From assembly GCA_028820695.1 (NCBI GenBank), contig JAPPIB010000057.1, positions 1 to 64,000 on the forward strand: a stretch of 64,000 nt of DNA. The letters are read 5' to 3'. Under the pieces are notes generated by a model that was not told the DNA's origin, did not search any database, and saw nothing but the letters and a program-made list of their open reading frames with translations. A program made the position numbers and the translations under genes. Positions 3,075 to 59,892 of this stretch are shown here, piece by piece. How positions within the stretch are numbered: the stretch's first letter is position 1; each line of letters opens with the position of its first letter. This DNA comes from Acidiferrobacterales bacterium. Its GTDB lineage: Bacteria; Pseudomonadota; Gammaproteobacteria; Arenicellales; JAJDZL01.

Positions 3075-3698
3075 ATGACAACCGAAGAAGAACGCCTAGA
3101 TCAGATAAAGGAGTGGTGGAAGGAATACCGCTGGACGATTGTCGCAGGCACCGTACTCGGAATCGGTGTGATTGGAGGTTGGACGGGTTGGAACGAGTAT
3201 ACCCGAGTCCAGCAGGAATCCGCATCCGTGCTATATCAGGATGTGTCGGTCGCGGTGGTTCAAAACGACTATGAAGCGGCACTGACAGCAGCTGAGCAAC
3301 TGTTGGATGAACATGGTTCTTCAGGTTATGCGGGCAAGGCCATGTTGCTGATGGCGCGCGCAAGTTATGAAAACGGCGACGCCGCCCAGGCTCGCCGCTA
3401 TCTGCGCCAGGCATTGGATGAGGCCACTGAAGAGGCCACTGTTCATGTGGCCAGGATCAGATTGGCAAAGCTGATGATTGCCGATCGGGAATATCAGGAT
3501 GCGCTCGACTTGCTTGACGTTGAAAGACAGCAGGGCTTCGATTCGTACTATCTCGAACTCAGAGGCGACGCCTATCATGCACTGGGAATGGATGAACAGG
3601 CGCATCAGGCTTATCTTCAGAGCATGGATGAACTCAGTCCGGGGTCATCATACGAACAGGTACTGGCATTGAAGTTAAACGAGACCGTCAGCGAATGA
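3075..3698 (+). CDS. yfgM: YfgM-type tetratricopeptide membrane protein
   Basis: A 207-residue inner-membrane protein of the YfgM family, an ancillary partner of the SecYEG translocon thought to help hand exported proteins to periplasmic chaperones. A short cytoplasmic N-terminus ending in KEYRW is followed by one membrane segment at about residues 19-38. A periplasmic domain with TPR-like helices (AAQARRYLRQAL, ALGMDEQAHQAYLQ) comes next. It lies between hisS and bamB, the same order as in E. coli. A 12-base tandem duplication near 3414-3437 encodes a repeated EAT stretch. The family call rests on topology and context. Confidence 0.88.
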   Translation: MTTEEERLDQIKEWWKEYRWTIVAGTVLGIGVIGGWTGWNEYTRVQQESASVLYQDVSVAVVQNDYEAALTAAEQLLDEHGSSGYAGKAMLLMARASYENGDAAQARRYLRQALDEATEEATVHVARIRLAKLMIADREYQDALDLLDVERQQGFDSYYLELRGDAYHALGMDEQAHQAYLQSMDELSPGSSYEQVLALKLNETVSE

Positions 3699-3705
3699 CT
3701 CCAGT

Positions 3706-4854
3706 ATGAAACTTCGCCTGATTATCGTAATCACCCTGTGCCTGACGCTTGTCGCCTGTGGCTCAGCCAGAAAGCGAGGCCCGGACCCGACACCTCTTTC
3801 CAAGATCACCGCGTCCGCGCAACTGGCATCTTTGTGGCGTAGTAATTTCGCGTCCGGGGGCACAGGTGCGGGCAGCCAGTTTATCAATTTGCTGCCGATT
3901 ATCGTTGACGACCAGATATTCGGTGCGTCAGCGCAAGGTCGGGTCGCTGCCATCGGCAAGAGTGATGGCAAATTGCGTTGGTCAACTGATCTGGAAAACC
4001 AGATCACCGCAGGAGTGGGAGTGGGTGATGGCGTTGTAGCTGTAGTCAGTGCCGCCCGTGAGTTGGTGACGCTGCGATCGGACTCCGGCGAGCTGCGATG
4101 GAAAGAGTCGATCGATCAGACCTCGTTCACTCCGCCATTGGTTTATCGTGGGATTGTAGTAATGCAGACCATCGACGGCGACTTGCTGGCAATCGACGCT
4201 TCGAGCGGAGAGTTGATGTGGGATGCATTCTATGATCAGCCGGAATTCGTCGTTTTTGGATCTCCGCGGCCACTGGCCATCGGAAATCTGGTTCTTGTCG
4301 GCAATGCGACCGGCCGCGTGTTCGCGACTGATCTTGCGACCGGTCTGGAATTCTGGCAGATCTATCTGGGCGGCACAAGTTCCGAAACAGCACTGAACGA
4401 CGCCGAAACCATACCGGTCATCTTTGGCGACCACCTGTTCGTTTCGGACTATACGAATGCGGTCGTGGCGTATGATCTGACCGACGGAAGTCTTTTCTGG
4501 CAGCGTCTCAGAAAATCCCAGCGTCGCTTGGCGGTGGATTCAGACCAAGTCTATGGAACGGATCTGGATGATACGGTTTTTGCGCTCTCGCGCAGTGACG
4601 GTTCAGTCAGGTGGGAGCAGAAATCGCTGCTGTACCGAAAACTGAGCAATATTGCACTGGTCGGTGATCATCTGGTGGTGGGAGATAATCAGGGTTATCT
4701 CCATATACTGGATACCGACAGCGGAGAAATTATCGGACGGGCAAAGCTGAGAAGTGATGTTCTGTTCGGTGGGTTTCTTACGGATGGCAACAGACTGTTT
4801 GTCAGTTATAGACAGGGGTCGATGGAGGCGTTCCGGCTGACTGCGGTCCAGTAA
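3706..4854 (+). CDS. bamB: Outer-membrane assembly lipoprotein BamB
   Basis: Beta-propeller lipoprotein of the BAM complex that inserts outer-membrane beta-barrel proteins. It has 382 residues. The lipobox is LVAC with lipidated Cys18. Repeated PQQ-like blades follow, each with a dG.lrW core (for example DGKLRWSTDL, SGELRWKESI, DGSVRWEQKS). It starts 7 bases after yfgM, consistent with one operon. Der follows after 266 bases that contain no gene. Confidence 0.95.
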   Translation: MKLRLIIVITLCLTLVACGSARKRGPDPTPLSKITASAQLASLWRSNFASGGTGAGSQFINLLPIIVDDQIFGASAQGRVAAIGKSDGKLRWSTDLENQITAGVGVGDGVVAVVSAARELVTLRSDSGELRWKESIDQTSFTPPLVYRGIVVMQTIDGDLLAIDASSGELMWDAFYDQPEFVVFGSPRPLAIGNLVLVGNATGRVFATDLATGLEFWQIYLGGTSSETALNDAETIPVIFGDHLFVSDYTNAVVAYDLTDGSLFWQRLRKSQRRLAVDSDQVYGTDLDDTVFALSRSDGSVRWEQKSLLYRKLSNIALVGDHLVVGDNQGYLHILDTDSGEIIGRAKLRSDVLFGGFLTDGNRLFVSYRQGSMEAFRLTAVQ

Positions 4855-5120
4855 TCCCTGAAGGCATGGCCAGGGCGGGACGCCCCCGATCTTTGGACTC
4901 CAGTTGCCTGTACGGCCGGCTGGGCAAAATAGCTGTCATGGTCGCTGCAGCGTGGCGTACGACCTGTTCGGTCCGGCAGGGACACCATGGTGAATGCAGT
5001 TATGTCGCTTTATACGCTGCAGCTGTTTGTGTCAATCCGGCGACCGCCTGATGTTACGAACAGGGTTACCCGGAACATAGAACACCAAGCACACCGCATT
5101 TGATCTTGTCGGAGAGGTTC

Positions 5121-6446
5121 ATGCTGCCCGTAATCAGTATTGTCGGACGCCCGAATGTCGGGAAGTCCACCTTGTTCAATCGCCTCACGCGAACTCGCGA
5201 TGCGCTGGTCGATGACATTCCCGGTGTGACCCGGGATCGGCTCTACGGTGTCGCCCGATTCGGTGAACGCAACGTTCTCATTGTGGATACAGGTGGAATC
5301 GGTGAGGAGGACGACGGACTTTCCAAACTGGTGGTGGAACAGGTCGAGTCGGTATTGGAAGAGTCGGATGCAATCGTGTTTTTGGTTGATGCAACCCAGG
5401 GTCTGACGGTTGCTGATGAGCAGATCGCACAGCGCCTCGGCAGGATCAATCTGCCAGTGGCCATCGCAGTCAATAAAAGCGAGGGACTGGCACCGGAACT
5501 CGCCTGTCTGGAATTCCAGTCGCTCGGATACAGCGAACCGGTCGCCATCTCAGCGCGTCGCGGCAGCGGCGTGGCACAGATGTTTGAGCCGATTGTGCAG
5601 TCACTGCCCCAGCAGGAGGATTCACTGTGGCTTGATCCCGGACCGAAAATTGCTGTGATCGGTCGGCCGAACGTCGGCAAGTCCACATTGATCAATGCCA
5701 TCTGCGACGACCAGCGTCTGATTGTCAGTGACGTGCCGGGTACTACCCGGGATAGTGTGCTGGTCCCATTTGAGCGAGGTGGAGAACGCTATCGATTCAT
5801 CGATACCGCGGGTGTGCGCAGAAAGTCCAGGATCGACGAATCACTGGAAAAACTCTCAGTCGTGAAGACCCTGCAGTCGATAGAGGCCGCACATGTCGTG
5901 ATTCTGATGCTGGATGGGTCGGAGGCTGTAACCGACCAGGATGCCACACTGGCGGGTCTGATCAGGCGTGCCGGACGTCCGGTGATCATTGCTGTGAATA
6001 AATCCGACCGAATCACAGCCGCATCCCGTGTCGATATCGAAAAGATGCTCCAGCGAAAGCTCGCATTTGCACCACATCATGAGTCGCTCTATCTGTCGGG
6101 ACTCAAGCGCCAGGGGTTTTCGAAGCTGCTCAAGGCGATCGATCTGGCTTACCGCTCGGCGATGATCGACATGCCGACTGGGATCCTGAACAGGACGCTG
6201 CAGGATGCCGTCAGTCAGATGCCTCCACCTTTATCCCGTCGTCGACCGGTGCGCTTGAAATATGCTCACCAAGGCGGTCGAAACCCGCCGGTAGTCGTGG
6301 TCCACGGCAATAATGTAAGTTCAATTCCAGACCACTATCGCCGCTATCTGGAAAAGTATTTTCGCGAACGGTTCGATCTTTTCGGCGCTGATGTCCGGGT
6401 GGTCTTTCGTTCGGGCAAGAATCCGTTCGACAAAGACCGCGACTGA
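5121..6446 (+). CDS. der: Ribosome-assembly GTPase Der (EngA)
   Basis: Tandem-domain GTPase needed for 50S subunit maturation. It carries two G domains, each with a GRPNVGKST P-loop (first at residues 9-17, second near 180) and a matching DTGG or DTAG switch. NKSE and NKSD guanine-specificity motifs are present, followed by the C-terminal KH-like domain. It is 441 residues from ATG 5121, which is preceded by GGAGAGG at the right spacing. An in-frame TTG at 5100 is less likely. It ends 6 bases from the converging xseA. Confidence 0.97.
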   Translation: MLPVISIVGRPNVGKSTLFNRLTRTRDALVDDIPGVTRDRLYGVARFGERNVLIVDTGGIGEEDDGLSKLVVEQVESVLEESDAIVFLVDATQGLTVADEQIAQRLGRINLPVAIAVNKSEGLAPELACLEFQSLGYSEPVAISARRGSGVAQMFEPIVQSLPQQEDSLWLDPGPKIAVIGRPNVGKSTLINAICDDQRLIVSDVPGTTRDSVLVPFERGGERYRFIDTAGVRRKSRIDESLEKLSVVKTLQSIEAAHVVILMLDGSEAVTDQDATLAGLIRRAGRPVIIAVNKSDRITAASRVDIEKMLQRKLAFAPHHESLYLSGLKRQGFSKLLKAIDLAYRSAMIDMPTGILNRTLQDAVSQMPPPLSRRRPVRLKYAHQGGRNPPVVVVHGNNVSSIPDHYRRYLEKYFRERFDLFGADVRVVFRSGKNPFDKDRD

Positions 6447-6452
6447 GTCGGG

Positions 6453-7802
6453 TCAGCTGTCGACGGAATCCACTTCAAGATTCAGGGTGCCGTCCGACAG
6501 TTGCGCCCGGACCTTGTCTCCGCTCGATACGCAGTCCACATGGGATATCACTGAATCGTCATCGGCGCGACGCATGATCGAGAATCCGCGATTAAGGGCA
6601 GTGGTGGGATTTGCGGATTGAAGCCTCGCAAGTAAATTCTCAATCTGATTGGACTTGGCATTGAAATGCTTGGAGAAATGAATATCAAGCAGTCTTTGGG
6701 CCTCTGAGAACTTTCGACCGATTAGTTCGATCCTGATTTTCGGTGACGCTGCAGACAGGCGCTGATTCTCGGACATGAGTCTGGTGGAATGCGAGTTCAG
6801 CAATTCGCTCGCAAGGTGGTGAAGACGATTTTCGATCAATTGAAAACTTGCCTGTTGATTCTGTATTCGCTGTGCGGGATGCACCAGGCTTTTGTGCATC
6901 AGGTCCACGTCCTGTGACAGTCCGTTGATTTTGCCGCTGATCAGGCTGGACAACCGAAATTTGTTATTGGCGAGCTTTTCCAGCAGGTCGTTCCGGGACG
7001 GCGTGCTCACGCGCTCCGCCGCTGCGGTCGGTGTTGCCGCACTGACGTCAGCAACGTAGTCCGCGATCGTCTTGTCGGTTTCATGTCCGATGCCGGTGAC
7101 GATCGGAATATCGCTCTGTTTGATTGCCTCAGCCACTGCCTCTTCATTGAATGCCCACAGATCTTCAATGCTGCCACCGCCCCTGGCAATTATCAGAACA
7201 TCCTCGCGGTTTCGCCTGTTCGCCAAATTGATTGCGGCGGCGATCTTTTCTTCGGCACCGGTACCTTGAACTGCGACCGGATAGACCAAAAGAGCAATGA
7301 ATGGACTTCTGCGAGTGAACGCCCGGATCATGTCCTGCACCGCGGCGCCGGTCGGTGATGTGATGATACCCACGCGTTCGGGAATGGCCGGCAGTTGTTT
7401 CTTGCGTTCGGCGGCAAAATATCCCTCTTTCTCGAGGCGCGTCTTGCGTTCGATGAATGATCTGTAAAGTTCGCCTTCGTCTTTGAGTTCGACTCCGCTG
7501 ACGATGAACTGATATCTGCCTCGGTTCGGATACAGTGTGACCTTGCCGATCAGAATGACTTCCTGACCATTTTCCGGTAATTTTCGAAGCTTGTACGCGG
7601 TTGATCTGAACAACGCACAATCAATCTCCGCAGATTGATCTTTCAGAGTGAAGTAGGTGTGCCCTGACTGTGCGGTCTGCAGTCCGGAAACCTCCCCTCT
7701 GAGCCGAATCTCTCCGAATTCGTCCTCAAGCAGCTTCCTGACCGTCGAGTTCAGTTCAGAAACGGTGAGAATGCGCATGGATTGTTTGCTGGATGCGTCC
7801 AA
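6453..7802 (-). CDS. xseA: Exodeoxyribonuclease VII large subunit
   Basis: Catalytic subunit of exonuclease VII, which degrades single-stranded DNA into acid-soluble oligonucleotides with XseB. The N-terminal OB fold (TVSELN to YFTLKDQ), the central nuclease region with ARGGGSIEDLWAFNEE and GIGHETDKTIADYVADVSAATPTAAAE, and a long C-terminal helical part are seen. Two starts are possible. The TTG at 7802 has AGGTG four bases upstream and gives 449 residues. The ATG at 7778 has no ribosome-binding site and gives 441. xseB lies elsewhere, at 20687. Confidence 0.95.
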   Translation of the reverse strand: MDASSKQSMRILTVSELNSTVRKLLEDEFGEIRLRGEVSGLQTAQSGHTYFTLKDQSAEIDCALFRSTAYKLRKLPENGQEVILIGKVTLYPNRGRYQFIVSGVELKDEGELYRSFIERKTRLEKEGYFAAERKKQLPAIPERVGIITSPTGAAVQDMIRAFTRRSPFIALLVYPVAVQGTGAEEKIAAAINLANRRNREDVLIIARGGGSIEDLWAFNEEAVAEAIKQSDIPIVTGIGHETDKTIADYVADVSAATPTAAAERVSTPSRNDLLEKLANNKFRLSSLISGKINGLSQDVDLMHKSLVHPAQRIQNQQASFQLIENRLHHLASELLNSHSTRLMSENQRLSAASPKIRIELIGRKFSEAQRLLDIHFSKHFNAKSNQIENLLARLQSANPTTALNRGFSIMRRADDDSVISHVDCVSSGDKVRAQLSDGTLNLEVDSVDS

Positions 7803-8059
7803 GTGGCACCTGCCGGCGGATCGTGAATGTTGCTGTCTTTGTCAGTTGTTGAGTTGTTGCGACCATTTTATATTGTCCGAATTCCGACAATGATCCGTTG
7901 TTCCAGACGCAAGAACCTCACACGCGCCGTCACCTGCCGCGACAGGTCGGTGAGCGCAGGCTTCCGCGACCTGGATATACGGTCGGCGGCGGTCGCGCTC
8001 GTGTTGGCTGATCCGGCGATGTTTGTGAACACTGCCCTCAAATCCGAGCGACTTAACAC

Positions 8060-8065
8060 TATAAT
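8060..8065 (+). promoter_or_regulatory. Putative -10 element of guaB
   Basis: A perfect TATAAT lies 6 bases before the guaB ATG at 8072. If used, transcription would start at or next to the A of the start codon. No TTGACA-like hexamer is seen 16-18 bases upstream, and there is no Shine-Dalgarno sequence between the element and the ATG. Confidence 0.5.
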
Positions 8066-8071
8066 TGGCGA

Positions 8072-9535
8072 ATGGAAAACATTGAACATGCACTGACCTT
8101 CGACGACGTCCTCCTGGTTCCCGCAAGTTCGACTGTACTGCCAAAAGACGTCGACCTCTCAACCCCTCTCACGCAGAAAATCCGTCTGAATCTACCGTTG
8201 CTTTCGGCGGCAATGGATACAGTCACCGAATCTGCGATGTCAATCGCCCTGGCGCAACTCGGAGGAATTGGTGTCATCCATCGCAACATGTCAGCGGACC
8301 GACAGGCTGCGGAGGTTCGCAGAGTCAAGAAACACGAGAGTGGCGTTGTAACCGACCCCATCACAGCGGATGTCAACATGACCATCTCGCAGGTCGCCGA
8401 CCTGATGAGGAACAAGCGCATATCGGGGGTTCCGGTACTGGATGGAAAGACTCTGTCGGGCATTGTCACCAACCGTGACCTGCGTTTCCAAAAACTGAGC
8501 GATAAGAAAATTACGACCGTGATGACGCCAAAGGAGCGTCTGGTCACGGTGCACAGGCAGGAAAAGAAATCCCGAATCCTCGAATTGCTTCATGCCAATC
8601 GGATCGAAAAAATTCTGGTCGTGGATGACTCGTTTCAGCTGGAAGGGTTGATTACTGTCAAGGATATCCTTAAATCCGATGTCTATCCGAATTCCTGCAA
8701 GGATGGGGACGGCAGATTGCTCGTAGCGGCGGCAGTCGGAACGTCAGATAGTGACCTTGAGAGAGTTGGCAGATTGGTGGACCAGGGAGTGGACGTGATT
8801 ATCGTTGATACCGCTCACGGTCACGCCCAGCGCGTGCTCCAGCAAGTGCGGAAGATAAAGGCGCAATTCCCCTCAATTGAACTGATTGCGGGCAACGTCG
8901 CAACCGCCACCGCGGCGCAGGATCTGGTGGATCAGGGAGCCGATGCGATCAAGGTCGGAGTCGGGCCCGGGTCCATTTGCACGACCAGGGTGGTTGCCGG
9001 CGTTGGCGTCCCCCAGGTCTCTGCAATTTTTGACGTTGTCAGGGCGATCCGCAACCAATCTATTCCTGTCATTGCGGATGGTGGTATCCGCTACTCGGGC
9101 GACATTACCAAGGCAATTGCCGCCGGCGCGCATTCGGTCATGGTCGGAAGCCTTCTGGGCGGTACGGATGAGGCACCGGGTGAGATTGAGGTTTATGAAG
9201 GCAGAACCTATAAGTCCTACCGCGGAATGGGATCACTCGGCGCACTCGAAGGCGGCAATTCGAAAGACCGCTATTTCCAGGAATCCGAGAACGAGCGGAT
9301 CAAACTGGTGCCGGAAGGAATCGAGGCTCGTGTTCCATATCGGGGCGCAGTGAAGAATATCGTACACCAGTTGATTGGCGGCCTGCGATCGGGAATGGGT
9401 TATACCGGAAGCGGTGATCTGGACACCCTTCGCAACAAGGGACGATTTGTCCGCATTACCAATGCCGGTGTGCGCGAGAGTCATGTCCATGACGTTGAAA
9501 TTGTCAAGGAATCTCCAAACTACCAGCGATTATGA
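8072..9535 (+). CDS. guaB: Inosine-5'-monophosphate dehydrogenase
   Basis: Oxidises IMP to XMP with NAD, the committed step to GMP. At 487 residues it has the full IMPDH layout. The N-terminus [17 protein letters not shown] begins the barrel. Two CBS domains occupy about residues 90-205. The active-site loop GPGSICTTR carries catalytic Cys303, and the flap ends with [11 protein letters not shown]. The start is fixed by homology even though no ribosome-binding site precedes it. Its stop overlaps the guaA start (9532-9535), so the two are probably translationally coupled. Confidence 0.97.
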
Positions 9536-11133
9536 TGTCGTCTCCTGCGGCTGATCATCCTCATGCCTCGCCTGAAAACAAGATACTGGTAATCGACTTC
9601 GGATCGCAGTATACGCAGTTGATCGCGCGTAGAGTTCGGGAGTGCAAGGTCTTCAGCGCTATCCTGCCATACGACTCGCCATTTGAGTCGATCGACAGTT
9701 TCCAGCCCGCGGGCATCATACTGTCCGGCGGGCCCGCTACTGTCACGGAGGAATTCACCGCCAGGGCAGTGCCGGAAGTGTTTGAGATGGGCGTCCCGGT
9801 GTTGGGAATCTGCTATGGAATGCAGACCATGACCGCCCAGCTTGGCGGTAAGGTTGAGAACGCCCTTTTCCACGAATATGGGCGTACCACAATGAAGCTG
9901 ATCGAGCAGTCAGAGCTGCTCCATGGACTCGGCGATCCATCCGGTAACGGGAGCCTGGGTCAGATGGATGTGTGGATGAGTCATGGTGACCGAGTGATCG
10001 AACTGCCACCGGGATTTACCGCGAGCGCATGTTCTGCAAATTCTCCCTATGCTGCGATCAGTGACGCTGACCGGCAGTTGTATGGATTTCAGTTTCACCC
10101 GGAGGTGACTCACACACCTCAGGGAAAGGCAATCATCGAGAGATTTGTTCACCGTGTCTGTCGTTGCTCGCCAAGTTGGGAACCGGAGTCAATCATTCAG
10201 AATCAGATCGATTCAATTCGTCGGCAAGTTGGATCCGATCGGGTTGTTCTAGCTCTGTCAGGCGGTGTCGATTCTTCTGTCTGTGCGGCTTTGCTGCACC
10301 GGGCCATCGGAGATCAGCTCACCTGCATTTTTGTCGACAACGGATTGCTGCGTCTCAATGAGGCGGATACCGTCTGTCAAACCATGACCGAAAAGGTCGC
10401 CGTGAATCTCATCAAGGTTGATGCGGCCGACAGATTCTATTGCGAACTCGCGGGCGTGTCCGAACCTGAGGAGAAACGCAGGATCATCGGTCGGGTATTT
10501 GTCGAGATTTTCCAGGAGGAGGCGAGCAAACTCAGTCATGTTGAATGGCTGGCCCAAGGTACCATCTATCCGGACGTAATCGAGTCGGCGGGGTTGAAGA
10601 CAGACAAGGCAAAAGTGATAAAAAGCCACCACAATGTCGGAGGACTGCCGGAGTCACTGCATCTGCGACTGCTTGAACCGTTGCGTGAGCTGTTCAAGGA
10701 CGAGGTGCGTACAATCGGTACGGAACTTGGCTTGCCGCATGAGGTTGTCTATCGACATCCGTTTCCCGGCCCCGGTCTCGGTGTCCGGATACTCGGTGAG
10801 GTGAAAAGAGAGTTTGCCGATATTCTGCGACAGGCGGACGCAATTTACATCGAGGAACTGCACCGACACGACTTGTACTACGAGGCAAGTCAGGCTTTTG
10901 TTGTGTTTGTGCCAGTCAAGTCTGTCGGAGTGGTCGGAGACAATCGCGCTTACGATTATGTTGTAAGTCTGCGAGCGGTGCAGACACAGGACTTCATGAC
11001 CGCGAACTGCATGGAAATACCTCACCCTATTCTTCAGGTCATTGCCAGCCGGATAACCAACGAGGTCGCAGGTGTCAGCAGGGTCACGTACGACATCACC
11101 AGCAAGCCACCGGCTACCATTGAGTGGGAGTGA
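9532..11133 (+). CDS. guaA: GMP synthase (glutamine-hydrolysing)
   Basis: Aminates XMP to GMP using glutamine and ATP. The class I glutamine amidotransferase domain has nucleophile Cys94 in GICYGMQ and the His/Glu pair in [10 protein letters not shown]. The ATP-pyrophosphatase domain carries the P-loop [10 protein letters not shown], and the C-terminal dimerisation domain ends in PPATIEWE, the family hallmark. It has 533 residues. Two consecutive ATGs (9532, 9535) overlap the guaB stop, and either could start translation. Confidence 0.97.
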
Positions 11134-53620: not shown

Positions 53621-55267
53621 TCAATTCATTGACGACCTGAGCATCTGTCTTGCCAGCTGGTGGGCGCCTTCCAGGTCATCTACGATATTTTCGTCCGGAA
53701 CAAGTTTCAGTACGTTCAGTGACGTCATGGTCCTGAAGACAGAGTCGGCGAAGCCGCACATGACGATTTGGATATTGTCCTGAGTGGCCACTTCGGTGAG
53801 TTTCTCAATCACCAGGGCAATGTCATCGTCGACAAATTGAGTCTTGGTGAAGTCAAAAATAATGATCTCATGATCCTTGATATCTTCGGTGACACTGTTG
53901 ACCAGTTTTGTTTTGGAAGCGATTGAAAGGATTCCGCTCAGACGGACCAGCACTGTACGCGTGGAAAAGGGGTCAAGTTTCGAGGTTGACGCATCCTCAT
54001 CAAACAGTTGCAGGTCAAGTATGGCTGCCGAAGTCACACTGTCCAGCTCGAATCGCTCGATTGTCCGGGCATGTGACATGGCTGCAGCGATCAGGCCAAG
54101 GGCGATGGCGGGCAGCAGGTCAACAAAAACAGTCAGGCCGAAAGTCAGCAAAAGTATGACCATTCTGGGACGCTGGATCCGATGAATACGATTGACAATT
54201 CTCCAATCGATGACGTCCCAGCCGACCTTGATCAAAATGCCCGACAATGCGGCGAGCGGTATCGGTTCCACGACGTCACTGATCACCAATACGATCAGCA
54301 CGAGTATGATCGCATAGGAAAGACCGGATACAGCGGTACTGGCGCCGGCGCGGATATTGGCCGCTGTTCCGGGTGGGGATCCGGAACCCGGCAGACCTCC
54401 GACAAGTCCTGCCGCTATATTTCCGATTCCCTGTCCGATCAGTTCGCGACTGGGTTTGTGCCGGGTTCCCGTCATGGTATCCGCCATGACTGCTGAAATC
54501 AGGCTTTCAACCGACGCGATCATAGCCAGAATGAATGCCAGTTCGACTGACGCCCACAGAAGATCGAGTCCCGGGAAAAATAACTGCAGTTGCGGCAATC
54601 CGCTAGGGATTTCTCCGATCACAGGTGAGTCGGGGAACCATAGAACAGCACTCAGGGTTGCCACAGTCAGGGCCACCAACGGGGCTGGCAGGTATTTTCC
54701 CAGTCTTGCCGGCCAGAAAATGGAAATACCCAGTGCAACCAAGCCGACGATCAGGGCGTCGACATTGGTCACCCCAATCAATTCGGTCAGCATATGCAGG
54801 GATTCCACAACTTCCGATACGGGCGCATGACCCAGCAACGGCAGCAGCTGAACAACGATGATGATCACACCGATTCCGGACATGAACCCTGAAACCACGA
54901 CTCTTGGCGCGTATTCGATATATTTTCCGACTCCCGACAACCCCAACAATATCTGGAAGAAGCCGGCTATCGAGACAATCGCAAACGCTTGATAAATGCT
55001 CTCGGCGTGGCTGGCGACGATGACTGCGATCGCGATCGCCACTGGCGCAGTGGGTCCTGAAATCTGGGTTGGCGTGCCTCCGAAAACAGCGGCGAAAAAT
55101 CCAACAGCAATCGCGCCGTAAATACCTGCGCTGGGTCCCAGACCGGTTGCGATACCGAATGCCAGCGACAAGGGGAGCAAGACCACTGATGCAGTCAGGC
55201 CGCCAAAAATATCCCCTTTCAATTTGGCAGGGCTATAGTTGCGCGGCAACAATGTATCAAATGCCAT
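53621..55267 (-). CDS. SulP family anion transporter with STAS domain
   Basis: Inner-membrane carrier of the SLC26/SulP family. ATG 55267 gives 548 residues. The SulP entry KLKGDIFGGLTASVVLLPLSLAFGIATG and the motif GGTPTQISGPTAPVAIAIAV lie in the first third, about 10-14 hydrophobic segments follow, and a cytoplasmic STAS domain occupies about the last 110 residues. The substrate could be sulfate or bicarbonate and cannot be told from sequence. A long in-frame extension to 55426 is polar and not SulP-like. It is divergent from the MmeI-like gene. Confidence 0.88.
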   Translation of the reverse strand: MAFDTLLPRNYSPAKLKGDIFGGLTASVVLLPLSLAFGIATGLGPSAGIYGAIAVGFFAAVFGGTPTQISGPTAPVAIAIAVIVASHAESIYQAFAIVSIAGFFQILLGLSGVGKYIEYAPRVVVSGFMSGIGVIIIVVQLLPLLGHAPVSEVVESLHMLTELIGVTNVDALIVGLVALGISIFWPARLGKYLPAPLVALTVATLSAVLWFPDSPVIGEIPSGLPQLQLFFPGLDLLWASVELAFILAMIASVESLISAVMADTMTGTRHKPSRELIGQGIGNIAAGLVGGLPGSGSPPGTAANIRAGASTAVSGLSYAIILVLIVLVISDVVEPIPLAALSGILIKVGWDVIDWRIVNRIHRIQRPRMVILLLTFGLTVFVDLLPAIALGLIAAAMSHARTIERFELDSVTSAAILDLQLFDEDASTSKLDPFSTRTVLVRLSGILSIASKTKLVNSVTEDIKDHEIIIFDFTKTQFVDDDIALVIEKLTEVATQDNIQIVMCGFADSVFRTMTSLNVLKLVPDENIVDDLEGAHQLARQMLRSSMN

Positions 55268-55664
55268 CAGTGCTGACTTCCTCAACCACTTGGAGTTACG
55301 AGTACCCGAAGGTGAATAAACGATTGCTGACGGTAAAAAAGATGAGTTACCCGCATCTGTCGGGGTGCCGAATACCTTGGATCGGTATTGTTGCCATTCA
55401 GTGGGCTGATTTGCGTCCGCAATCAATCTAATTTTAATACCTATCTTTATGGGAATTTACAAATCCGCGCGCGTCTGGCGGATCGGCACGCAAAACGGGA
55501 TGGTCACGTACGAGGCAATCGGTTTGGGACAGTTGTAAAATACCGGTTATGCAAGCGCATTTGAAGCTTCGTTACGCGCCTCGCCCTGACACCTCTCAAA
55601 GAATTGGCTGCGTAATGCCGCTATCTTGTGGAATTCACAACACGCACACAACAGACCAGCACCA

Positions 55665-58454
55665 ATGGCATTGAGTTGGAATGAAATTCGAATCCGAGCT
55701 GCCGAGTTTTCCCGCGACTGGTGTGATGCGAGATATGAAAAAAGTGATACACAGAGCTTTTACAACGACTTCTTCGCTATATTCGGGGTGAAACGACGCA
55801 GGGTTGCGCGCTTTGAGGAGAGAGTGACCCGACTGGACAATTCACGTGGCTATATAGATCTTTTCTGGCCGGGTGTGTTGCTGGTTGAGCAAAAAAGTGT
55901 CGGCCGCGACTTGAATCAGGCCGCAGAGCAGGCCGGTGAGTATTTTGATGCCGTAAACGACTCGGAAAAACCGCGCTATCAGCTGGTATGTGATTTTCAG
56001 ACGTTCCACCTGCTCGATCGAGAGACGCGCGGGCAGTGGAAGTTCACGCTTGAGGAACTGCCACAGAATGTGGAAGTATTTGGCTTCATTCTGGGTCGGC
56101 AATCTCGCGACTTCAACCAACAGGATTCCGTCAGTATCGCGGCGACAGAACTTGTGGGCCAAATTCATGACAGACTTGCACATTCGGGGTATCCAGCTGA
56201 TGATCTTGAGAGATTCCTGGTGCAGCTGGTCTTCTGCCTTTTTGCTGACGACACCGGAATCTTCGAGCCGCGTGACATTTTTCATAATCTCTTGCTTGAC
56301 CACACGCACGAGGATGGATCGGACACAGGGCTGTGGCTGAAACGGTTATTTGAGTTACTGAACACCCCGGTTGACGAGCGTCAACGTTACCTCATTGATG
56401 ATTTGGCAGCATTCCCTTATGTGGATGGCATGCTGTTCGAACACCATCTTGTTACTGCTGATTTTGACTCCGTGCTTCGAAACCGGCTGCTGGAAGCCTG
56501 CGAGTACGACTGGTCGGAGATATCGCCGGCAATATTCGGGTCGTTGTTTCAGTGTGTGATGGACAAGGATCTTCGCCGTGCGATCGGAGCTCACTATACG
56601 ACTGAGGAGAACATTCTGAAAGTGATCGAGCCACTTTTTCTTGATGACCTCAGAAAGGAATTCTCAGATATCTGCAAGTTGAAACGGGGTCAGGCCTATC
56701 GGTTGCAGGAGTTCCAACGCAAGTTGGGTGATCTGACATTTTTTGACCCGGCCTGTGGTTGCGGAAACTTCCTGGTTATCGCATATCGGGAGTTAAGGCA
56801 ACTGGAGATCGACGTGCTTCGACAGAGAATCAGTTCCAGTCAGCTTGATTTGGATGCCCGCAGTCTGAGTATTGTCGATGTCGATCAGTTCTACGGTATC
56901 GAACTGGAAGAATTTCCAGCACGGATTGCTGAGATTGCGTTGTGGATGATGGATCACATCATGAACAATCGGCTGGGAGAGGCATTCGGCAAGGTCTACA
57001 CGCGTATTCCTCTTCGCGCCACCGCAAACATTGCGTGCGCGGATGCGCTCGAGATGGACTGGAATGACGTCATCTCCGCGGCGAACTGCAGTTACATCCT
57101 TGGCAATCCTCCCTTTTCAGGTTCCAAGCTCCAAAGTCCGGAACAACGCGCTCAGGTTCATCGAATTGCCGCATTCAAGCACATCAAGGGAACACTTGAT
57201 TATGTGAGTTGCTGGTTTCTGAAAGCTGCTGCGTATGTTGAAGGCAAAACGAGAATCGGTCTTGTCGCAACCAACTCGATTGTGCAGGGTGAACAGGTGG
57301 GTCAGTTGTGGCCATTGATGTTCAATCGGGCCGGGTTGGATATCGCATTCGCACACAGTTCGTTCTCATGGTCGTCCGAAGCGAGCGGCGCAGCTCATGT
57401 CCATGTGGTGATTATCGGGCTCGTGCGAAGTGAATATCGGCCGAAGTCGGTGCGTCTTTTCAGTTATCCTGACAACACGCAACGGCCGCAAGAAAGCTCG
57501 CACAAGAATATCTCCCCGTATCTCGTGCCCGAACTTGAGCGCTATCCCTATGTGGCAGTGCAGGCCAGCAAACGTCCGATCAATGGCTTTCGGGCATTGA
57601 AGGCGGGATCGAAACCGATTGACGACGGAAATTACATTTTCAAGTCCCAGGCGCAGCGGGATGCCTTTGTCGCCCGGGAACCAGCCGCCGCGCAGTTCAT
57701 CCGTCCCTATGTCGGATCACAGGATCTGATCAATGGTACGACCCGATACATTCTGGCACTGCACGATGCCACGCCGGATCAGTTGGCAAATCTTCCGCAG
57801 GTGCGCGAGCGGATCAGGGCAGTGCGCGAGTTCAGGCAGCGAAGCAGCAGCGTTCCAACGATCAAACTTGCTGACACTCCAATGCTGTATCACATCAATG
57901 TCATTCCTTCCTCTGCCTTCCTGGTGATTCCAGTGACAAGTTCCGAACGTCGGGAGTATGTTCCGATCAGCTGGCTGGAACCGCCTGTAATCCCCAACAT
58001 CGATACAAGAATACTTGTCGATGCGAGTCTGGCCGATTTCGCACTGCTGACGTCCCGGATGCACATGGTCTGGCTTCGATTTGTAGGTGGCCGACTGGAA
58101 AGTCGCTATCGTTATTCCATCAATTTGGTCTACAACGTCTTCCCGCGTCCCGAAGGTGATCTTGACCGTCTGGAACCATTCGCAAAGGCGGTGCTCGATG
58201 CAAGAGACCAATATCCGGATACAGCATTCCTGAACTTGTATGATCCAGACTTCATGCCTGCCGGATTGCGTACGGCGCACGCCAATCTGGACCGAGCGGT
58301 TGAACGGCTTTACCGCCGCAGACCGTTCGACTCAGATCAGGAAAGAATAGATTGCCTGTTCGAACGTTATGAGCAGTATGTCCAACCCTTGCTCATCAGC
58401 AAGCGGGGATACAGAAGTTTCGGACGCAATCTTCCGTCTGCTGTTTTCGCATAG
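55665..58454 (+). CDS. MmeI-like type IIL restriction-modification enzyme
   Basis: A 929-residue single-chain enzyme that should both cut DNA and methylate adenine. The N-terminal nuclease motif is D65-X9-E75-X-K77 (YIDLFW, LLVEQKS), the same spacing as in MmeI. A helical linker leads to a gamma-class methyltransferase with motif I DPACGCGNFLVI (Asp361) and motif IV NPPF (Asn481). A target-recognition and C-terminal region follows. No separate S or R gene is nearby. Type IIL enzymes methylate one strand of their site and cut about 20 bases away. The recognition sequence cannot be read here. ATG 55665 is chosen over a frame opening at 55626. Confidence 0.88.
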   Translation: MALSWNEIRIRAAEFSRDWCDARYEKSDTQSFYNDFFAIFGVKRRRVARFEERVTRLDNSRGYIDLFWPGVLLVEQKSVGRDLNQAAEQAGEYFDAVNDSEKPRYQLVCDFQTFHLLDRETRGQWKFTLEELPQNVEVFGFILGRQSRDFNQQDSVSIAATELVGQIHDRLAHSGYPADDLERFLVQLVFCLFADDTGIFEPRDIFHNLLLDHTHEDGSDTGLWLKRLFELLNTPVDERQRYLIDDLAAFPYVDGMLFEHHLVTADFDSVLRNRLLEACEYDWSEISPAIFGSLFQCVMDKDLRRAIGAHYTTEENILKVIEPLFLDDLRKEFSDICKLKRGQAYRLQEFQRKLGDLTFFDPACGCGNFLVIAYRELRQLEIDVLRQRISSSQLDLDARSLSIVDVDQFYGIELEEFPARIAEIALWMMDHIMNNRLGEAFGKVYTRIPLRATANIACADALEMDWNDVISAANCSYILGNPPFSGSKLQSPEQRAQVHRIAAFKHIKGTLDYVSCWFLKAAAYVEGKTRIGLVATNSIVQGEQVGQLWPLMFNRAGLDIAFAHSSFSWSSEASGAAHVHVVIIGLVRSEYRPKSVRLFSYPDNTQRPQESSHKNISPYLVPELERYPYVAVQASKRPINGFRALKAGSKPIDDGNYIFKSQAQRDAFVAREPAAAQFIRPYVGSQDLINGTTRYILALHDATPDQLANLPQVRERIRAVREFRQRSSSVPTIKLADTPMLYHINVIPSSAFLVIPVTSSERREYVPISWLEPPVIPNIDTRILVDASLADFALLTSRMHMVWLRFVGGRLESRYRYSINLVYNVFPRPEGDLDRLEPFAKAVLDARDQYPDTAFLNLYDPDFMPAGLRTAHANLDRAVERLYRRRPFDSDQERIDCLFERYEQYVQPLLISKRGYRSFGRNLPSAVFA

Positions 58455-58638
58455 GCGAACAGTCTTGAGCCTTCCAAATCCATTGATTATCTGCCCGTAC
58501 AGGAGCAATATTCAACAACGTCGATCCGTCGTCGCTTAGCGGCATTGCGACCACAGCCTGCCCGCCGGACCGGACTTCAGATGCATACACATGTCGCCGG
58601 CTGTCAGCGCGGCCAAAAATATTCGGTGTTTTCAACAA

Positions 58639-58644
58639 TATAAT
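58639..58644 (+). promoter_or_regulatory. Putative -10 element of the MidA-like gene
   Basis: TATAATGG lies 25 bases before the ATG at 58669. No -35 consensus is evident. Confidence 0.4.
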
Positions 58645-58668
58645 GGCGACCGGTACATTCATATCGAT

Positions 58669-59892
58669 ATGAAAACGCATTCTGACAATGCCCGCCTGGC
58701 CGTGGACCTCGAAATGTCTGCTGAAGAGCATGAGCGTTCCCGTATGCTCAGCGCGTTGATTCAGGAGCAGATTGCAAGTTCGGACCACCAGGCGATTCCA
58801 TTTTCGAGCTATATGAATCTCGCCCTGTATGCACCGAACTGCGGTTACTATACCTCCGCAGGACGGGTAGTCGGTGCCGGGGGTGACTTCATTACCGCAC
58901 CGGAACTTGGGGAAGTGTTCGGTATTGTTCTTGCGAGCAAGATTGCGGACTGTCGCACACAGTTTGAAAATCCGCCCGTGTTGTACGAGTTTGGCGCGGG
59001 CAATGGGACCTTGGCGATGCAGATTCTCGAACAATTGCATCGCCGAAATGTTGACATCGAAAATTATGTGATCGTTGAAGTCAGTCCGGTGCTCAGGGAA
59101 ATTCAAAAAGACACCTTCAGCCGTGCGGGACATCAGGTCGGTCACAAGATTGAGTGGCGGGAAACACTGCCGCAATCGGGATTCGATGGCATCGTGATCG
59201 CGAATGAGGTCATTGATGCCATGCCAGTTGAACTGTTTTTCAAGGCGGGTGATGAGTGCCGACAGGGGTTTGTCGTCGAGACCGATGGCGGTCTTGGATT
59301 GGAATACCGTACACCCGTTCGGCCGGATTTCCGAAAGTCCATCAACGCGCTGAATCTGCTGGAGTTCGATGACGAATACTTCTCCGAGATTCACTGCCAG
59401 GCTGAAGCATGGATCCGCACATTGGCACAAATGATGCGATCCGGGTCGATTCTGATCGCTGACTATGGGTTTCCTGAGCACGAGTACTACCATCACGACA
59501 GGAATCAGGGAACTTTGGTCTGTCACCGACGACACAGGCTTGTGTATGATCCTTTTGCCTATATCGGCTGTCAGGATATCACGGCCCACGTCAATTACAC
59601 GGGACTGGCCCGGGCCGCCGCTGAAATGGGAATGGAAGTCAATGGGTTCACCAATCTTGGCAGTTTTGTCGTTGACATCGCAGTGATCGGCGCGGCACTC
59701 GAACAGGCAACGCAGAATTCCGCACAGCATGCCCGCGAGCTCGACAAGTTGAGCAGTCCGCAAGAAATGGGTGAGATTTTCAAGGTGATGGAACTGACCA
59801 AGAACTTCAATTCAACCGGATTGGGGTTTGAATTGTCTGATCGGACCCATCGTCTAGGTGTTTCCGACCCGAATTTCGGAGCGGGAAACTGA
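58669..59892 (+). CDS. SAM-dependent methyltransferase, MidA/NDUFAF7-like
   Basis: A 407-residue member of PF02636. Its eukaryotic relative NDUFAF7 (MidA) methylates an arginine of a complex I subunit; the bacterial target is unknown. The sequence shows IPFSSYMNLALYAPNCGYYTS, GDFITAPELGEVFG, the SAM-binding EFGAGNGTLAMQIL, GIVIANEVIDAMPVELF and LIADYGFPEHEYYH. ATG 58669 follows a TATAAT; an in-frame extension to 58591 covers that promoter and is rejected. It is followed by uppP after 27 bases. Confidence 0.88.
   Translation: MKTHSDNARLAVDLEMSAEEHERSRMLSALIQEQIASSDHQAIPFSSYMNLALYAPNCGYYTSAGRVVGAGGDFITAPELGEVFGIVLASKIADCRTQFENPPVLYEFGAGNGTLAMQILEQLHRRNVDIENYVIVEVSPVLREIQKDTFSRAGHQVGHKIEWRETLPQSGFDGIVIANEVIDAMPVELFFKAGDECRQGFVVETDGGLGLEYRTPVRPDFRKSINALNLLEFDDEYFSEIHCQAEAWIRTLAQMMRSGSILIADYGFPEHEYYHHDRNQGTLVCHRRHRLVYDPFAYIGCQDITAHVNYTGLARAAAEMGMEVNGFTNLGSFVVDIAVIGAALEQATQNSAQHARELDKLSSPQEMGEIFKVMELTKNFNSTGLGFELSDRTHRLGVSDPNFGAGN

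Follow-up and report, generated by a model that had tools for sequence, protein, structure and literature searches.

The window, a stretch of 64,000 nucleotides of Acidiferrobacterales DNA, contained a gene whose product is very probably a restriction-modification enzyme of Type IIL (the MmeI family) that acts on its own. The gene appeared to be an old resident of its locus, present before the split between the host genome (G000) and its sister species (G004) and lost from the sister by internal deletion. The enzyme family is well characterised; the new points are the history of the locus and an unusual set of recognition residues. The features were as follows.

55665..58454, forward strand: MmeI-like gene, 929 codons from ATG (Pfam, PADLOC Type IIG, 5HR4 alignment)
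55665..56183, forward strand: N-terminal PD-(D/E)XK endonuclease domain, residues 1-173 (Pfam MmeI_N, residues 11-173)
56202..56438, forward strand: helical spacer domain, residues 180-258 (Pfam MmeI_hel)
56691..57452, forward strand: gamma-class N6-adenine methyltransferase domain, residues 343-596 (Pfam MmeI_Mtase)
57546..58154, forward strand: target recognition domain (TRD), residues 628-830 (Pfam MmeI_TRD, contact mapping, comparison of 177 TRDs)
TRD contact positions, mapped to MmeI: A647, K650, S729, H743, I744, V757, I779, D780, E812, R814, R816
58164..58391, forward strand: C-terminal helical bundle, residues 834-909 (Pfam MmeI_C)
58466..58500, forward strand: probable sulfatase-start remnant, similar to the start of the intact G004 sulfatase
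53621..55426, reverse strand: SulP/STAS anion transporter, flanking context outside the system
58591..59892, forward strand: MidA-type methyltransferase (Methyltransf_28), flanking context outside the system

The original prediction of a single 929-residue chain, an MmeI-like Type IIL enzyme, was right in every respect that could be tested, including the coordinates, domains, full-length alignment and catalytic residues. The longest open reading frame begins at a TTG at position 55626; homologues begin instead at the ATG, which at 55665 gives the N-terminus MALSWNEIR, as in MmeI. All five Pfam domains (MmeI_N, hel, Mtase, TRD, C) were found in order, each far above its gathering score, and the PADLOC Type IIG model covered residues 2-907 with 1080 bits. 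The best solved relative was the MmeI structure 5HR4 (phmmer E=1.4e-258, residues 1-922), with 47% identity over 907 residues aligned end to end, close enough to a solved protein to settle the fold. A chance match was excluded by this E-value together with the five domains above gathering score. The reading frame ran through all 929 codons without a stop or frameshift, and the gene was the sole MmeI-like copy in the host genome. Assignment to BREX PglX or DISARM DrmMI was rejected, as these matches were weak and partial, the window's main ORFs included no partner genes, and a nuclease domain was present.

The nuclease motif D65-x9-E75-Q-K77 aligned exactly with D70...E80-M-K82 of MmeI, bearing out the predicted D-X9-EXK motif at MmeI spacing. 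Methyltransferase motifs I (FDPACGCGNFL, with DPACGCG at 361-367) and IV (NPPF at 481-484), which had been described as intact, were both recovered in the alignment to MmeI. H310 and W569 were also present and correspond to MmeI H314 and W570, the residues framing the flipped adenine, whose roles and conservation have been described (PMC4833311). What was observed, and supports the Type IIL model, is homology along the whole chain, catalytic residues that are all in place, the order of the genes and a presence that predates the split from the sister; methylation, cleavage, reach and an anti-phage role we infer from characterised MmeI. By this model, one polypeptide would use its recognition domain to bind an asymmetric site some 6 bp long, and the gamma-class methyltransferase would flip out and methylate the penultimate adenine on one strand only, protecting host DNA. 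Where unmodified DNA holds at least two sites, two molecules would form a dimer via the N-terminal PD-(D/E)XK domains, and the cut would lie some 20/18 nt downstream of the site.

The neighbouring gene families were those originally reported, a SulP transporter on one side and a MidA/uppP/hem block on the other. Upstream, the SulP/STAS transporter on the opposite strand is followed by GltB; downstream lie the MidA-type Methyltransf_28, BacA/UppP, HemC, HemD and HemX. PADLOC detected no other defence gene in 30 further main ORFs from the window, giving weak AAA/GTPase cross-matches only. The claim that no other defence gene accompanies the enzyme therefore held for the window's main ORFs but not genome-wide, as two Type I-like (HsdM-type) N6_Mtase loci lie elsewhere in the host genome (G000:C47:5444-6361 and G000:C32:17739-18695). 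A search for mobile-element boundaries around the MmeI-like gene found no notable flanking repeats and no tRNA, and base composition resembled that of the surroundings.

The sister species G004, a single-contig genome, was the closest relative with data (72% identity for MidA and 74% for SulP, as given by the search tool). A comparison of SulP and midA synteny in relatives lacking the intact gene had been proposed, and G004 proved to be such a case, keeping the interval with a stump and a sulfatase gene inside it. There the MmeI-like ORF is cut to 95 codons, the first 92 of which match the window enzyme (L037:2345-2632). The stump still encodes D-x9-EQK, and after codon 92 its frame runs straight into the final few codons of the MmeI-like gene. 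An intact 484-aa sulfatase (PF00884) follows (L037:2619-4073). Between the window and G004, a colinear 56-nt match (73%, E=9e-4) runs across the stop codon of the MmeI-like gene and the start of the sulfatase. Taken together, the stump, the G004 sulfatase and the sulfatase-like stretch in the window indicate that the ancestral order was probably SulP, MmeI-like gene, sulfatase, midA. The simplest reading is that the window lineage lost the sulfatase and the sister lineage the restriction enzyme, the sulfatase part being less certain as the match is short. Independent insertion at the SulP-midA spot was rejected, as the sister holds a stump in the same interval. The gene does stand alone in a housekeeping neighbourhood today, as originally claimed, but this description needs refining, since the interval was occupied before the split and, judging from G004, formerly held a sulfatase gene as well.

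Over the 92 codons shared with the G004 stump, dN/dS was about 0.12 (NG86) to 0.19 (YN00), similar to that of the flanking genes (0.13-0.26). This similarity indicates that the gene was constrained through most of the period after the two species parted. The locus offers a clean case of a restriction-modification gene that one species has retained and that an internal deletion has removed from its sister.

Other relatives were distributed widely. Among the matches listed in a genome-collection scan, the best 80 relatives showed 53-60% identity, came from many phyla, and were intermixed by phylum on the tree. Within the genus, one other full-length copy was found, in G003; it was 59% identical and stood at a different locus. 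Two N-terminal MmeI-like fragments occurred in G002 (L040:4453-4947 and L039:5701-6266), one of them an open 164-aa ORF with the nuclease domain alone, near a transposase-like ORF. A matching recognition domain was present in about one in ten genomes of the class and phylum samples; restriction systems usually show such a pattern of gain and loss. Some relatives were altered at normally invariant catalytic positions, with K82 changed to R (L121), H314 to Y (L045) and NPPF to NPPY (L095). At another locus, L047, an MmeI-like gene (3501-6266) was followed by two opposite-strand ORFs (6291-9613) that by eye encode a putative AlbA-type ATP-binding protein and an SMC/ABC-like ATPase, neighbours that possibly reflect a defence association. 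The bin names of several relatives suggest a sponge origin. Two others among the listed relatives belong, by accession series or bin naming, to the bins from the sponge Aplysina aerophoba in PMC5649159, where bin107 is listed; enrichment of restriction systems in sponge symbionts has already been published (PMC5099237; PMC5649159).

The TRD of the window enzyme aligned end to end with that of MmeI, and its contacts correspond, in order, to MmeI positions 642, 645, 723, 737, 738, 751, 773, 774, 806, 808 and 810. By the published rules, G:C at base 1 typically goes with serine at 723 and a positive residue at 737, and C:G at base 2 is correlated with K645. Base 5 is the target adenine, and at base 6 the E806/R808 pair is exclusive for C:G (PMC4833311). 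Position 737 is histidine here, which is only partly positive, and the base-1 rules are not simple by their authors' own description (PMC4833311). From these published contact rules we infer a partial target, 5'-GCNNAC, in which the A would be methylated and the cut would fall about 20/18 nt downstream. The E-R pair at 806/808 is present and the pair at 751/773 is atypical; around positions 751, 773 and 774 the alignment was free of gaps. V757/I779 and D780, at bases 3 and 4, match no published pair, and the V/I pair, the isoleucine at 773 and the aspartate at 774 were each unique to the window enzyme among 177 non-redundant sampled TRDs. Specificity could not be transferred from a close characterised TRD, as no sampled TRD exceeded about 60% identity and none carried the V/I/D set. 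A search for site avoidance covered 428 kb of host sequence and 400 kb from the sister, which lacks an intact gene. None of the GCNNAC hexamers showed clear depletion in the host: GCAAAC had the lowest z there (-2.7), and it was low in the sister too.

A new target site, as originally suggested, is plausible, given that the residues reading base pairs 3 and 4 form a combination unique among 177 TRDs, but the target itself was predicted only in part. It is a tentative proposal, somewhat short of an even chance, that V757/I779 and D780 read base pairs 3-4 by a code that the published MmeI-family rules do not cover, and so specify a previously unknown target of the form GCNNAC. The odd residues at 751, 773 and 774 could instead reflect weakened recognition. 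A rival reading holds that the sequence-intact enzyme is decaying, its recognition or activity already lost; the internally deleted sister copy speaks for this. The non-polar V757/I779 pair, where almost all relatives carry polar reading residues, is consistent with decay, as are a terminal branch of 1.18 against a median of 0.21 and changes at 13 of 249 near-invariant columns, more than in most relatives and including R565S and T566S beside W569. We consider decay unlikely, since the 929 codons are unbroken, the checked catalytic residues are intact, none of the 13 changes is catalytic, and active MmeI itself deviates at 27 of the 249 columns.

A methyltransferase-only enzyme that serves as an epigenetic regulator and has lost its restriction activity, or no longer uses it, would fit long residence among housekeeping genes, and the position has been stable since before the G000/G004 split with no mobile element found around the gene. 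The intact nuclease triad (D65/E75/K77) and the low dN/dS of the nuclease region nevertheless make this very improbable, as does the loss of the gene in the sister, which indicated that it is not essential. A complete restriction-modification enzyme remains the preferred reading. The usefulness of Type IIL enzymes stems from the single recognition domain that serves both cutting and methylation, so that each new contact combination helps to decode the family; with the window enzyme one could test which base is read by a non-polar pair at position 3.

Metagenome-assembled bacteria also carry uncharacterised MmeI-like enzymes, about 54-60% identical, which are full-length homologues in one clade. 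Most of those listed share the window enzyme's K645, S723 and H737 set (bases 1-2), and none has its V/I/D at 751/773/774. MmeI of Methylophilus methylotrophus (PDB 5HR4), which recognises TCCRAC and cuts at 20/18 (PMC4833311), has in common with the window enzyme its five domains, length class, catalytic residues and 47% identity. The E-x-R pair of MmeI (C:G at base 6) and the equivalents of R810 and K645 are likewise kept. A comparison of recognition-domain residues with characterised MmeI, as the original prediction had proposed, revealed differences at 642 (A for Y), 723 (S for A), 737/738 (H-I for F-Y), 751 (V for E), 773 (I for N) and 774 (D for A), and a target different from that of MmeI is therefore expected.
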